From IMG/VR virus record IMGVR_UViG_3300035157_000196, positions 1 through 20,078 of that record: 20,078 nucleotides of DNA; one strand, 5' to 3'. This document shows positions 12,980-19,170 of this stretch, one piece after another. The position numbers and the translations under genes were made by a program. Origin of the DNA: a virus. The stretch's first letter is position 1, and each line of letters starts with the position of its first letter. Below the pieces are notes generated by a model. That model saw nothing but the letters and a program-made list of their open reading frames with translations, searched no databases and was not told the DNA's origin.

Positions 12980-13128
12980 TACTTATCCAATACCTTATAA
13001 TATTTTCTATATTCTTCTGGCACAAAAATATCTCTGCCGTGATGGTCTTTTACTATTGTGCCACGAAGATCCACAATATATCCGTCTTTATTTATGTATT
13101 CTATCATTCCGTCTTTAAAATGGTACAT
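12979..13128 (-). CDS. Small ORF (49 aa) between SSB-like and 71-aa genes
   Basis: Begins MYHFKDGMIEYINKDGYIVD and ends EEYRKYYKVLDK. The ATG lies inside the end of the SSB-like gene (14-base overlap) and its stop overlaps the next ATG as TAATG, filling the gap exactly between two coupled genes. Two DG(M/Y)I repeats and a DLRGTIVKDHHGRDIFVP stretch suggest a small beta barrel. No recognised family; the tight fit is the main support. Confidence 0.6.
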   Translation of the reverse strand: MYHFKDGMIEYINKDGYIVDLRGTIVKDHHGRDIFVPEEYRKYYKVLDK

Positions 13129-13678
13129 TACCACTACTTTCTTCTTCTTTAGTTAATTCACTTGATCTTAAAATAATGTTTCTAATACCCTCTCTAATTT
13201 GATTGAATACTTCCTTATTACCCTTTTGATAATCTTCTATACTAAATAATTTAGACTTATGATACTGTTGGTTTATATCATCTTTAAGTGGCATAATGCT
13301 TACAATATGTTGCTTACCATTATCTTTTTCCATTATCTGTATTTGACAAGTTTCACCCAACATATCGCCTAAATTAAATTGCTTTTTCTCTTGAGCAGAA
13401 AATGGCTTACCTCTCCACGAAGTTAAATCTTTAGATAGATTTGATTTTTCGTAAAATGATACATTATAAAATTTGCTTATAGTTAGTGGGTCGTTATCAT
13501 TATTAGTATGTTCTGGAACTTCCCATTCAAACAATACTTGTCGTTTCCAAGATGTTTCTCCTTGCCAATTATTTTCCTGTGTACCTAAATCTATTACACT
13601 AATACATCTAGCTTTTTGAACACCAAGTGGAATTGTTGGATATTTTGGTTTACTATCTTCTGACATTACTAAACTCAT
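13115..13678 (-). CDS. Phage single-stranded DNA-binding-like protein
   Basis: 187 residues. The pattern IPLGVQKARCISVIDLGTQ, SWKRQVLFEWEVP, YNVSFYEKSNLSKDLTSWRGKPF and FNLGDMLGETCQIQI is that of a phage family taken to be an OB-fold ssDNA-binding protein. The C-terminus is acidic and ends SSGNVPF, resembling the (D)DIPF tip by which SSBs recruit partners. A strong ribosome site (TAAGGAG) and a near-consensus promoter precede it. First gene of the leftward operon and the immediate target of the divergent switch. Role: coating ssDNA in replication and recombination with the Cas4-like nuclease downstream. A family-level similarity call, not proven. Confidence 0.7.
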   Translation of the reverse strand: MSLVMSEDSKPKYPTIPLGVQKARCISVIDLGTQENNWQGETSWKRQVLFEWEVPEHTNNDNDPLTISKFYNVSFYEKSNLSKDLTSWRGKPFSAQEKKQFNLGDMLGETCQIQIMEKDNGKQHIVSIMPLKDDINQQYHKSKLFSIEDYQKGNKEVFNQIREGIRNIILRSSELTKEEESSGNVPF

Positions 13679-14827: not shown

Positions 14828-14995
14828 TTACTCTCCTACTTTTTCTATATCAGAAACAAATACTTGTGGGTCAGTTATTGAGTTAATTTGACCACAAATT
14901 GCCATTTCTTTAACATCTTCTTCACAATCTGCTTTAACATAAGTTGTTTCAGTAGTTGTAACTATACATCTGTATAAATTTTTATATTTTTTCAT
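14828..14995 (-). CDS. Small ORF (55 aa) after helicase gene
   Basis: Reads MKKYKNLYRCIVTTTETTYV..., 55 residues with two more Cys (ADC, AIC). It starts at an ATGA overlap with the helicase stop, preceded by a strong AAGGAG ribosome site that lies inside the helicase's last codons. Strand-helix-strand layout, ending IEKVGE. It stops 4 bases before the next ATG. Ribosome site, coupling and tight packing make it a likely real gene; the family is unknown. Confidence 0.65.
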   Translation of the reverse strand: MKKYKNLYRCIVTTTETTYVKADCEEDVKEMAICGQINSITDPQVFVSDIEKVGE

Positions 14996-16476
14996 AATCT
15001 AACTCCTTTTGATTTAGCTTTTTTAATTTGTAAATGCTTAATAAAATTATGCACTTCGTTTGTAGGTGGTATGGGCAAGACCATTTTAGAATGGGGAAAG
15101 TGATGGAATTTTTCTCTAAAAGTATGACTTGCCCACCCCTCTTTATACCCTTTTTGTTTTGCAATAAACAATAGTTGGGCATAAAACCTTTTCTTATCTT
15201 CTGCTTTTGTTTCTTTCATTTTTGGTAATTCTATTAATCTACCTTGTTTAATTAACATAATCTGTTCTTTTTTAGTTGGTATGTGAGAACAGTTTGGACA
15301 TTCTGGTTCTTCTTTTGTAGGTTTATAAACAAAATCACATTTAACACAAGTATAAGGTTGTTTTTCAATAGGTACAGGGTCTTTCTTTTTTCTTTCTTTT
15401 TCTTCCCTGCGTTTTAATTCCCATTTAGGTACATCTTCTGGAAATCCGTGTTCATATATGCAACCACTATGATCTATTATTAATGTGTCGTTTTTATCTG
15501 GGTGTGGTCTTAATGATCTACCTACCATTTGCAAATACATTCCATAAGATTTTGTAGGGCGACAAATCACTACACAAGAAACTTTTGGACAATCCCACCC
15601 CTCCGTCAGTATCATACAATTTGACAGCACTTTAATTTTATCTTCCTGCAAATCTTTTAACACTTGCTCTCTATCTTCATCATTCATTTCACTATCAATA
15701 TGCCCTGCAGGTACACCATTTTGGTTAAATATGTTAGCTATATATTTACTATGAGCAATACTACTAGCAAAAACAACAGTTGGTCTATTCTCTGCAAACT
15801 TAATCCAATGAGTTACAGTATCGCCAACTAATTTTGTTTTATTCATTCTTTTATCTAATTCTGTTTTATCATAATCGCCCATAGAAATTTTTAATCCCTG
15901 CAAATCTGGAATACTAGGTGCAAAAACTCTGTTCTTAACAAGATACCCTTGTGCAGTTAAATCTCTTATATTGCTACTCTCTACTAACTCATCATAAATA
16001 TTGCCAAGTGGTTTTCCGTCATTTCTAATTGGTGTTGCGGTTAATCCCACGACATAGGCATCTGGATATTCTTCTAATAATTTTTTAAATGTATCACTCG
16101 TTGATCTATGTGCTTCGTCTAAAATAATCAAATCTGCATCTGGTTTAATAAAATCGTCATTATCTTTTCTGGCATTATAAGTTTGAATACTTGCCACTTG
16201 TGTATTGTGTAAATAACTACCTGTAATACCTGCCATTATCACCCCTGCATCAATTCCAAATTGATGTAATTTATTAGAACATTGCATTACTAACTCTCTG
16301 CGGTGAGCAACAAACAAACAACATTTATTTTTCTTTCTTGCTTTTTCTATCATTCTACTTGCAATAACAGTTTTACCGCTACCTGTTGGAGCAACTAATA
16401 AAACTTTTTTATTTCCTTGTTGAAATTTTTGTTTTATTTGTTCTATAGCAAACTCTTGATATTCACGAAGTTGCAT
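14992..16476 (-). CDS. SF2 DEAH-box DNA helicase with C-terminal zinc finger
   Basis: 494 residues. Helicase motifs in order: Walker A APTGSGKT (29-36), VAHRREL (Ia), LDEAH (119-123, motif II), LTATP (145-149, motif III), VVFASS (IV), LTEGWDCP (V, near 290) and QMVGRSLR (VI, 316-323). C377, C380, C393 and C396 form a C-x2-C ... C-x2-C zinc ribbon after the second RecA lobe. This layout is that of RadD/UvrB-class phage helicases, acting in DNA unwinding for replication or recombination. A GGAGAAGAT ribosome site precedes the ATG, inside the primase gene's end (14-base overlap). Partner of the primase by proximity. Confidence 0.85.
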   Translation of the reverse strand: MQLREYQEFAIEQIKQKFQQGNKKVLLVAPTGSGKTVIASRMIEKARKKNKCCLFVAHRRELVMQCSNKLHQFGIDAGVIMAGITGSYLHNTQVASIQTYNARKDNDDFIKPDADLIILDEAHRSTSDTFKKLLEEYPDAYVVGLTATPIRNDGKPLGNIYDELVESSNIRDLTAQGYLVKNRVFAPSIPDLQGLKISMGDYDKTELDKRMNKTKLVGDTVTHWIKFAENRPTVVFASSIAHSKYIANIFNQNGVPAGHIDSEMNDEDREQVLKDLQEDKIKVLSNCMILTEGWDCPKVSCVVICRPTKSYGMYLQMVGRSLRPHPDKNDTLIIDHSGCIYEHGFPEDVPKWELKRREEKERKKKDPVPIEKQPYTCVKCDFVYKPTKEEPECPNCSHIPTKKEQIMLIKQGRLIELPKMKETKAEDKKRFYAQLLFIAKQKGYKEGWASHTFREKFHHFPHSKMVLPIPPTNEVHNFIKHLQIKKAKSKGVRL

Positions 16477-17257
16477 ATCTTCTCCACATATCGTCTAATT
16501 GCCATAATACTTCCTGCTCTGTATCTGGCGGATTACACATACTATTAAACTTTAATACTTCAGCTTTTGCATACTGATATTCCTCGCCACGCTTAATTAT
16601 TGAAATTACCATTTTTACTAATTTAGCGTGCCTATCGCCTTGTGTTGCTCCTGTCATACCGCCTGTATATTTGTGTGCATAATTTGGATTATGTATAAAC
16701 ACTCTTTTTTTTGGTCTTTCTAAACCAAAACCATCTCTAATTTCTTCTTTTGTATATTCTGGCATTATGTTTTGTTTAACTACCTTTACAGGATATGGCT
16801 CTTTTTTATTGTGCCAAAAACCTGCACATCTCATTATTCTAGGTAAATCTTTTACAACAGGATCACTTCCAAACTTACTTGCTAATGCCTGTTGGTAAAG
16901 AGTAAAACTTTCTAGTGGCATATCTTTTACTAGCCAATAGGTATGATATTTATTAGGACTTGTATTTACTATAAAATGCGGTAACACATCAAACTTTTCT
17001 GGCATTGGTGTTCCGTCAAAATCACAAAATACCGCTCTTATCTTTTTAATGTTTTTAGTTGTTCTGCCCTGCAAATCAGTTTCATTGACAGTAAAATAAA
17101 CTCCTGCACCCTTTTGATTTAATTCTGACAGTTCATCTATATGCTCGTCAATATGTCCGTGTAATTGTTTAATTAATCTTTTGTTTTTTCCTTTATCGCA
17201 AAAAGTTTGAAAACTATTTGTTAAACCAAATGGATATAAAAAATCGTAATACATCAT
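16463..17257 (-). CDS. DNA primase, archaeo-eukaryotic (RepB-primase-like) type
   Basis: 264 residues. The core runs GAGVYFTVNETDLQGR (50-65), RAVFCDFDG with catalytic D79-x-D81, then NTSPNKYHTYWLV (S100, H105) and KDLPRIMRCAGFWHNK (D137, R140, H149). These are the conserved motifs of RepB-like AEP primases that make primers on ssDNA. No fused helicase; the SF2 helicase is encoded immediately downstream. The start ATGATG overlaps the stop of a 21-codon ORF and is preceded by GGGAG; either ATG could serve. Residues 205-264 are a helical C-terminal region (KMVISIIKRGEEY...VLWQLDDMWRRY) as in primase C-terminal domains. Confidence 0.8.
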   Translation of the reverse strand: MMYYDFLYPFGLTNSFQTFCDKGKNKRLIKQLHGHIDEHIDELSELNQKGAGVYFTVNETDLQGRTTKNIKKIRAVFCDFDGTPMPEKFDVLPHFIVNTSPNKYHTYWLVKDMPLESFTLYQQALASKFGSDPVVKDLPRIMRCAGFWHNKKEPYPVKVVKQNIMPEYTKEEIRDGFGLERPKKRVFIHNPNYAHKYTGGMTGATQGDRHAKLVKMVISIIKRGEEYQYAKAEVLKFNSMCNPPDTEQEVLWQLDDMWRRYATS

Positions 17258-17319
17258 TTTTTATTCTCCCACCAATACCAAGATAAACCAAATGCAATGT
17301 ATAATAAAACTAATTCCAT
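17254..17319 (-). CDS. 21-residue membrane-like ORF coupling DUF1376 gene to primase
   Basis: Reads MELVLLYIAFGLSWYWWENKK. Its ATG overlaps the upstream stop (TAATG) and its TGA overlaps the primase ATG. Hydrophobic residues 3-17 could form one membrane segment. It may encode a micropeptide, or simply carry ribosomes to the primase start, whose GGGAG lies inside this ORF. Confidence 0.35.
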   Translation of the reverse strand: MELVLLYIAFGLSWYWWENKK

Positions 17320-17696
17320 TATTTACCCCACCTAATTTTAGCACCAAGTTTCCCTGCTTTTTGTTTTTTAACTCTGTTTATAGCTTGTTCTTTTCTTTCC
17401 TGCTCCGCTTGAACGCATATAAAATAAGTTTTTCCGTTTCGCTCTTTCTTTACTAAAAATTCTTTTTCTACTAACTTTGCAAATATTCTGCGAATTTTAT
17501 CAATAGTACAATTACACATTCTACTTAATACTTCTTCGTCATACTCTATTTCAAAACTTATCCAACAACGACAATATAACAAGATATATGCACCCTGTTC
17601 TTCTAAACTTAATTTTACTCTGTCATTACTAGCTAACCAATCGTTAGCATAAAACCTAAAAATAGGTGATTGTTCTTCCCTAGTTGTTCTTCTCAT
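17319..17696 (-). CDS. DUF1376-like replication-associated protein (winged helix)
   Basis: 125 residues. The start RTTREEQSPIFRFYANDWLASNDRVKLSLEEQGAYILLYCRCW matches the DUF1376 opening (SPxFxFYxxDWL...EQGAYxxLL..CW). Residues 52-90 (EIEYDEEVLSRMCNCTIDKIRRIFAKLVEKEFL) look like a winged helix-turn-helix. The basic tail (RVKKQKAGKLGAKIRWGK) fits DNA contact. Family members sit beside replication genes and resemble initiator or helicase-loader N-domains. First gene of the primase-helicase operon, directly downstream of the hexamer array at 17727-17774, which could be its binding site (inference). An AAGGA site lies about 10 bases before the ATG. Confidence 0.68.
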   Translation of the reverse strand: MRRTTREEQSPIFRFYANDWLASNDRVKLSLEEQGAYILLYCRCWISFEIEYDEEVLSRMCNCTIDKIRRIFAKLVEKEFLVKKERNGKTYFICVQAEQERKEQAINRVKKQKAGKLGAKIRWGK

Positions 17697-17726
17697 TTAC
17701 ATTGTCCTTGTTTGATCTATCTTGAT

Positions 17727-17774
17727 AGTATAAGTATTGGTATAGGCATAGGTATATGTATATGTATAGCTATG
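17727..17774. repeat. Array of eight degenerate 6-bp units (iteron-like)
   Basis: Reading in register: AGTATA AGTATT GGTATA GGCATA GGTATA TGTATA TGTATA GCTATG, consensus (G/A/T)GTATA, 48 bp with no gap. It lies 31 bases upstream of the DUF1376 gene's ATG in a 139-bp gene-free interval. Possible replication-origin iterons, an AT-rich unwinding element, or a repressor array. TATACT for a leftward -10 box also lies at 17732-17727. Confidence 0.6.
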
Positions 17775-17791
17775 TTTTGCCATTAGCAAAA
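17775..17791. repeat. Short inverted repeat TTTTGC-N5-GCAAAA
   Basis: Six-bp perfect arms (17775-17780 and 17786-17791) around CATTA, directly after the hexamer array. It has no following T-run on either strand that would make a convincing terminator, so an operator or origin element is likelier. Confidence 0.5.
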
Positions 17792-17803
17792 ATATAGCAC
17801 AAC

Positions 17804-17818
17804 TATGGCATTGCCATA
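17804..17818. repeat. Perfect palindrome TATGGCA-T-TGCCATA
   Basis: Seven-bp perfect arms with one central base. The half-site TGCCAT also occurs at 17778-17783 inside the neighbouring inverted repeat, giving three copies within 41 bp, a layout expected of a dimeric DNA-binding protein site. Confidence 0.6.
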
Positions 17819-17835
17819 ACATATTTTTACACCAT

Positions 17836-18855: not shown

Positions 18856-19170
18856 TTATTCAGTTAGTTTTGCAAGGTTCAAAGTTTTTTCTCTCAAATT
18901 TTCGCCAATCTGCCCTACTTTCTCTTTCTCTTTCTCTTTCTCTTTCTCTCTGGGATCTCCCATTTTCTGGTCAACAGTATTCCAAGAAAAATTGGGCTGA
19001 ACATCATAAATAAATCTACTAGGACTCCTATAAATTTTAATAGGTTTTCTTACCTCTTTTTCAATGTTACCAATAATTTTATAGATATAACTGTCCTCCC
19101 ATTCATCAATAGAATAATCGCAACTTATTCTATCCCTTAACTCATCAAGTAATTTAATTATTTTATTCAT
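18856..19170 (-). CDS. Hypothetical protein with Glu-Lys repeat (104 aa)
   Basis: 104 residues. Residues 1-45 are mostly helical (IIKLLDELRDRI, YKIIGNIEKEVRKP); the middle carries YRSPSRFIYDVQPNFSW; residues about 73-85 are a run of alternating Lys and Glu, REKEKEKEKEK, encoded by five tandem hexamers. The C-terminus ends KTLNLAKLTE. Ribosome site AAGGAG sits inside the end of the methylase gene, one base separating the TAA from the ATG, so the two are co-translated. No family recognised. The terminator follows 33 bases after the stop codon. Confidence 0.6.
   Translation of the reverse strand: MNKIIKLLDELRDRISCDYSIDEWEDSYIYKIIGNIEKEVRKPIKIYRSPSRFIYDVQPNFSWNTVDQKMGDPREKEKEKEKEKVGQIGENLREKTLNLAKLTE
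18919..18948. repeat. Hexanucleotide tandem repeat (TTTCTC)5
   Basis: Five exact copies of TTTCTC (GAGAAA on the coding strand), encoding Glu-Lys pairs in the 104-residue protein. Because the unit is two codons, gain or loss of copies keeps the frame and changes only the length of the charged run. Confidence 0.85.

Follow-up and report, generated by a model that had tools for sequence, protein, structure and literature searches.

At RK2 oriV, the winged-helix initiator TrfA contacts the iterons as duplex DNA and, together with them, a single strand of the DUE repeats (PMC4081077). The DnaA-trio rule calls for a run of three or more NAN trinucleotides following DnaA boxes (PMC8287927), and the DnaD recognition element is described by conserved TnnT pairs on one strand (PMC10201434). 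Contiguous short repeats are also known from parS of pSM19035, which consists of 7-bp heptads (PMC9499535). Here we describe a locus in a 20,078-bp IMG/VR phage contig (the window) in which tandem 11-bp repeats are followed by an array of hexamers and a gene for a DUF1376 protein. Its sequence and gene linkage suggest that this element is most likely the replication origin of these phages, the site where DNA copying starts. We found no pelagiphage origin of this kind described in the open-access literature.

Layout of the element in the window

A 140-bp interval holds the array; it is bounded by a small upstream gene and by the start codon of DUF1376 (minus strand, 17696; Table 1). On the minus strand, the element consists of TGCYAW repeats in 11-bp steps, a 16-nt spacer, six to eight T-N-C-N-N-N units, CAAGATA, and then DUF1376, with the last TGCYAW repeat at a fixed 22 nt before the array. 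The array of the original prediction was confirmed, but the strand that matters biologically is the minus one. Tandem Repeats Finder reported a period of 6 with 7.7 copies, 80% matches and a score of 50 at 17728-17773, a stretch that overlaps the seven-unit array. Lag-6 identity over that stretch (32/40) was the maximum of the window and far above the maxima of 20-26 obtained when the entire window was dinucleotide-shuffled 200 times. The seven-unit array was the only (TNCNNN)x7 run in the window, and no second run was present in the 12 genomes or records scanned. Another 6-bp array in the window (CTTTCT, 5.3 copies, 100%), at 18918-18949 within the ORF at 18856-19170, codes for an EKEKEK stretch and is unrelated to the origin candidate.

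Table 1. Features of the element and its neighbouring genes (window coordinates)
Feature	Position	Strand	Remarks
Iteron-like half-site TGCCAT, -44 nt from array	17805..17810	-	Within palindrome TATGGCATTGCCATA (17804-17818); in 11-bp phase with the next two
Iteron-like half-site TGCTAT, -33 nt from array	17794..17799	-	In 11-bp phase
Iteron-like half-site TGCTAA, -22 nt from array	17783..17788	-	Within TTTTGCTAATGGCAAAA (17791-17775); -22 is also the commonest position in TTCANC-class relatives
Array of seven units (T-N-C-N-N-N): TACATA TACATA TACCTA TGCCTA TACCAA TACTTA TACTAT	17725..17766	-	In register with CAAGATA
CAAGATA box, closes the array	17718..17724	-	Follows the array in relatives examined, including replaced arrays
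DUF1376 winged-helix protein, 125 aa, candidate initiator	17319..17696	-	Pfam PF07120; PHROG; fold match
RepB-like primase	16463..17257	-	Pfam PF16793 RepB_primase
SF2 helicase	14992..16476	-	Pfam ResIII and Helicase_C

The interval was predicted to be gene-free, and it holds no conserved gene: the 54-aa ORF that crosses it (17861-17697, minus strand) matched no Pfam family, and no frame has a universal start codon. Rfam gave no match at E <= 1. The elements listed in the original prediction, the array and two palindromes, are present, and the conserved CAAGATA box after the array had been missed.

The two palindromes, TTTTGC-N5-GCAAAA (17775-17791) and TATGGCA-T-TGCCATA (17804-17818), are better described as parts of TGCYAW direct repeats in 11-bp steps (17810, 17799 and 17788). 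The motif TGCCAT does occur three times, as predicted (plus strand, 17778 and 17812; minus strand, 17810). Perfect palindromes with 7-bp arms are not rare in the window (21, vs 29 +/- 8 in shuffles), and it is therefore conservation alone that gives this palindrome weight. Across 50 non-redundant upstream stretches, lag-11 identity was 0.44 vs 0.27 expected, the strongest signal among lags 4 to 33; the corresponding z value of 20 does not translate into a probability because the sequences are related. Fifty of 83 successive TGCYAW spacings were exactly 11. The last site lies at -22 in both the TTCANC class of relatives and the TATACM class of the window, where the array is counted in register from CAAGATA. 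In the plus-strand direction, the palindrome at 17804-17818 and the ACATATTTTT that follows it (17804-17827) score as a terminator-like site, which may end rightward transcripts.

Conserved layout and variable units among relatives

An element of the same kind holds the same position in the cultured Pelagibacter phage Baldr and in over 110 IMG/VR contigs, and its carriers are marine phages that probably infect SAR11. A search with the DUF1376 protein gave 80 loci, nearly all with upstream regions that share one plan on the DUF1376 strand: tandem TGCYAW sites, TTTTGCTAATGGCAAAA or a variant of it, A/TATCCCC or TAGCCC, the array, CAAGATA, in most cases a TTGAC promoter motif, and DUF1376. A scan for the array pattern that used no gene information returned 112 contigs, of which 110 carry DUF1376 downstream, at a distance of 97-690 bp and in the same orientation; in the remaining two, the contig stops less than 190 bp from where the array begins. 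Likewise, for each of the 61 distinct DUF1376 proteins included in a tree, the 1.3 kb upstream contains a repeat array and then CAAGATA. Among cultured relatives, only Pelagibacter phage EXVC032P Baldr (OQ414636; array at 32,377) was found, and the pattern was absent from the bacterial and archaeal genomes scanned. The element is single copy per genome, as seen in contigs of relatives that are largely incomplete. Matches to looser patterns (L227, L231, L237, L240-L243, L246-L249) were attributed to chance, and one further contig (L196) has a short TATACA run with no DUF1376 found nearby.

Lack of a conserved hexamer register in relatives had been named as a refuting result; here the 6-bp period and the place of the array were conserved, but the unit sequence differed between clades. 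Units fall into the classes TTCANC, TTCGTC (L223, L224 and L233) and TATACM, the last being that of the window's clade. TTCANC units have T (98%), C (98%), A (96%) and C (89%) at positions 1, 3, 4 and 6, with positions 2 and 5 free, as counted in 219 units from 32 non-redundant arrays that were fetched by protein only and matched by a regular expression demanding an initial TTCA and a closing CAAGATA. Units of the window's clade follow TAC-N-W-A, and a T-N-C every six bases is common to both classes. Array length varies mainly in steps of 6, with 42-43 nt in 41 of 51 arrays and 35-38 or 48 nt in the rest. On the tree of 61 proteins, the TATACM clade (98/93 support) adjoins the TTCANC clades; the "mixed" class shown there is crude, with clear 7-nt or irregular units only in L056/L239, L238 and L075.

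In two contigs, a 4-bp GTAA array replaces the hexamers between the same flanks (L076:1752-1812 and L078:2201-2261). Both retain CAAGATA, the start GCCCTTCA and the repeats of 11 bp, here with the core TGCGAT; TTCATC units are found in L252, a near relative of the two. The place of the array, the 11-bp repeats and CAAGATA are thus more conserved than unit sequence or even unit length. Given the GTAA arrays and the few contigs with mixed 6/7-nt units, a strict 6-bp reader is not universal. The GTAA replacement amounts to a natural experiment, and if the element is the origin, the 6-bp arrays of three sequences, the mixed 6/7-nt arrays and the 4-bp arrays would form a natural series for testing which properties an initiator requires of the track next to its binding sites.

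The DUF1376 gene and candidate functions of the element

The partner that the array keeps throughout is DUF1376; it follows neither the primase-helicase block nor any promoter or reading frame. The element had been predicted to precede a DUF1376-primase-helicase operon; in six contigs the array and DUF1376 stay together although the primase/helicase/HNH block is partly or wholly inverted or moved. Baldr and others have a gene inserted between the array and DUF1376, and two genes that are divergent from the array in other clades sit elsewhere in the window's clade. The contigs with an inverted block (L131, L088, L146, L156, L179 and L191) indicate repeated rearrangement in this phage group. We also note a missed gene in Baldr: positions 31098-31691 (minus strand) encode a full-length homologue (51% identity) of the window protein at 13115-13678, where the record annotates a ribosome-binding site only.

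The DUF1376 protein matched PHROG primosomal, initiation and DnaD-like families, and a winged-helix structure is predicted for it (mean pLDDT 78). Among solved structures, its best fold matches are the RepA_N plasmid initiator domains 4pql, 4pt7 and 5kbj, one of them a Rep-DNA complex, in a weak match that lies near other winged helices (Foldseek E 1.8e-3, Z 6.4; Foldseek and VIA). At the sequence level, a Pfam scan of the window protein gave DUF1376 only, with no RepA_N domain, and a PDB search returned nothing relevant. The fold match to RepA_N initiators is suggestive, not proof.

We consider it fairly probable that the element is an iteron-type theta origin, with a winged-helix initiator that would attach to the 11-bp repeats and either open the neighbouring track or load onto it. 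The TGCYAW sites by DUF1376 are multiple short direct repeats with regular spacing beside an initiator-like gene, as expected of an iteron origin. Spaced by one helical turn (11 bp), these sites would share one face of the DNA; the DUF1376 protein, made beside the element, would bind them and form a multimer with a fixed end point. Along the 36-48 nt T-N-C-N-N-N track, the strands would then be separated and one strand held, or the helicase and RepB-like primase would be loaded. CAAGATA would set the far boundary of the track, and theta replication would begin with the host polymerase. The array of the TTCANC class is stabler than its surroundings (mean -1.31 vs -1.23 kcal/mol per step) and so does not fit a classical AT-rich unwinding element. 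Less stable DNA is found 35-80 bp past CAAGATA, and the window's array is only mildly unstable. Since the TTCANC-class array is not easily melted, this class may use active melting, or its array may be a loading track with melting starting in the weaker stretch after CAAGATA.

The prediction of an origin or master operator gained partial support for its first half from strict linkage to an initiator-like gene, an architecture fixed across more than 110 contigs, and single-copy occurrence. The proposed check by cumulative GC skew spoke neither for nor against it: in 10 phage contigs and Baldr, the extremes track gene orientation and the strand-corrected residual was uninformative.

The main rival is an operator role of the same sites, alone or in addition. 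Taken alone, this would have a phage regulator, possibly DUF1376 itself, acting on the repeats and array to control early replication promoters (divergent in the TTCANC class), with no origin. This would fit the repressor function common among winged-helix proteins, as well as the layout of the TTCANC class, where divergent operons flank the element and nearly all contigs have a TTGAC motif after CAAGATA. However, the distance from CAAGATA and the array to TTGAC varies from 1 to 39 nt, whereas that from repeats to array is fixed, and the window's clade, with an ATG 21 nt after CAAGATA, has no room for such a promoter. Genes inserted between array and DUF1376 in several contigs, and the presence of one copy per genome, also argue against an operator without an origin, which we regard as possible but unlikely.

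We find it improbable that the array is instead a site for primase or helicase loading (single-strand initiation) or for R-loop priming, used on a single strand, either within an origin or in a late replication mode, and not recognised by DUF1376. Such a site would suit the RepB-like primase in the same operon, an array strand that is nearly free of G in most classes, and a TTCANC-class array that is no unwinding element. Yet the array remains with DUF1376 when the primase and/or helicase genes are inverted away, and strand composition differs by class, with G present in TTCGTC and GTAA arrays. A site of the partition or anchoring type, in which a small DNA-binding protein coats short repeats lying end to end, has its precedent in the pSM19035 heptads (PMC9499535) but is very unlikely here, as Baldr has no parA-like gene among its annotated genes and the neighbours of the element are replication genes.

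Equally unlikely is a coding stretch (a Tyr-Thr, Ser/Thr-Pro or His-Leu repeat peptide) or functionless low complexity or slippage: in almost every relative, none of the three forward frames is interrupted across the array, and the array is annotated in Baldr as the N-terminus of WDQ27616.1, but start codons occur in only 22, 18 and 39 of 54 relatives per frame, which led us to reject coding in any frame, and from one clade to another the units are replaced altogether, whereas CAAGATA, the 11-bp repeats and the period and place of the array persist. The annotated start of that Baldr CDS (EXVC031PHodr_035; OQ414636, 32360-32731) falls inside the hairpin and array, so that the first ~20 residues (MANTSPSSSPSTATTPTTA) are probably a translation of repeat DNA that does not code. 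A Rho-utilisation (rut) site, raised by the C-rich, G-poor TTCATC arrays, was also rejected, as TATACA units of the window's clade have no YC pairs and the array is upstream of the promoter.

If the element is an origin, it would provide a marker for origins in an abundant group of marine phages, and would suggest a likely role for the DUF1376 domain in this group.

Comparison with known origins

Several described origins share parts of this layout. PICI/SaPI origins likewise have a primase or initiator gene beside an iteron origin, but two iteron sets flank an AT-rich region there (PMC6092414), whereas the one repeat set seen in the phages lies upstream of the array, as scanned on the upstream sides of aligned elements. 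The origin of the PLE satellite is similar in lying between divergent operons and in its semi-palindromic direct repeats (PMC7145576). RepA_N initiators (pSK41 and pTZ2162) provide the best solved fold for the phage protein; however, phage DUF1376 is a single 125-aa domain, the element has no poly-A centred iterons, and RepA_N origins as described (PMC7145576) have no adjacent hexamer track.

Resemblance to the basal unwinding system (PMC8287927) and the DnaD recognition element (PMC10201434) lies in double-strand boxes, a short and partly GC-rich spacer, and a directional track with 3-nt-like periodicity, and the DnaD-like PHROG match of DUF1376 is a further likeness. Neither published rule describes the array itself. 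The middle base of the triplets in TTCANC arrays alternates between A and T on the lower strand in every unit, which departs from the DnaA-trio, and no DnaA box was identified in the phage element. For DnaD, the T's of the would-be TnnT pairs fall at positions 2 and 5, the most variable ones. We put forward only tentatively, as a rather doubtful idea, that a phage winged-helix initiator unrelated to DnaA might use a DnaA-trio-like principle, in which double-strand sites spaced by one turn would guide it onto a directional track of 6-nt (2 x 3-nt) units read on a single strand, with T-N-C constant and the code rewritable between clades.

The likeness to RK2 oriV and TrfA concerns direct-repeat initiator sites adjoining shorter direct repeats, together with a winged-helix initiator. 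RK2 differs in having four 13-mers in an AT-rich DUE, whereas the phage element combines 11-bp repeats with an array of 6-nt units that, in the TTCANC class, is neither AT-rich nor unstable. By analogy, an origin opened by DUF1376 appears the favoured reading because the layout resembles, in principle, those of RK2 oriV and the basal unwinding system.
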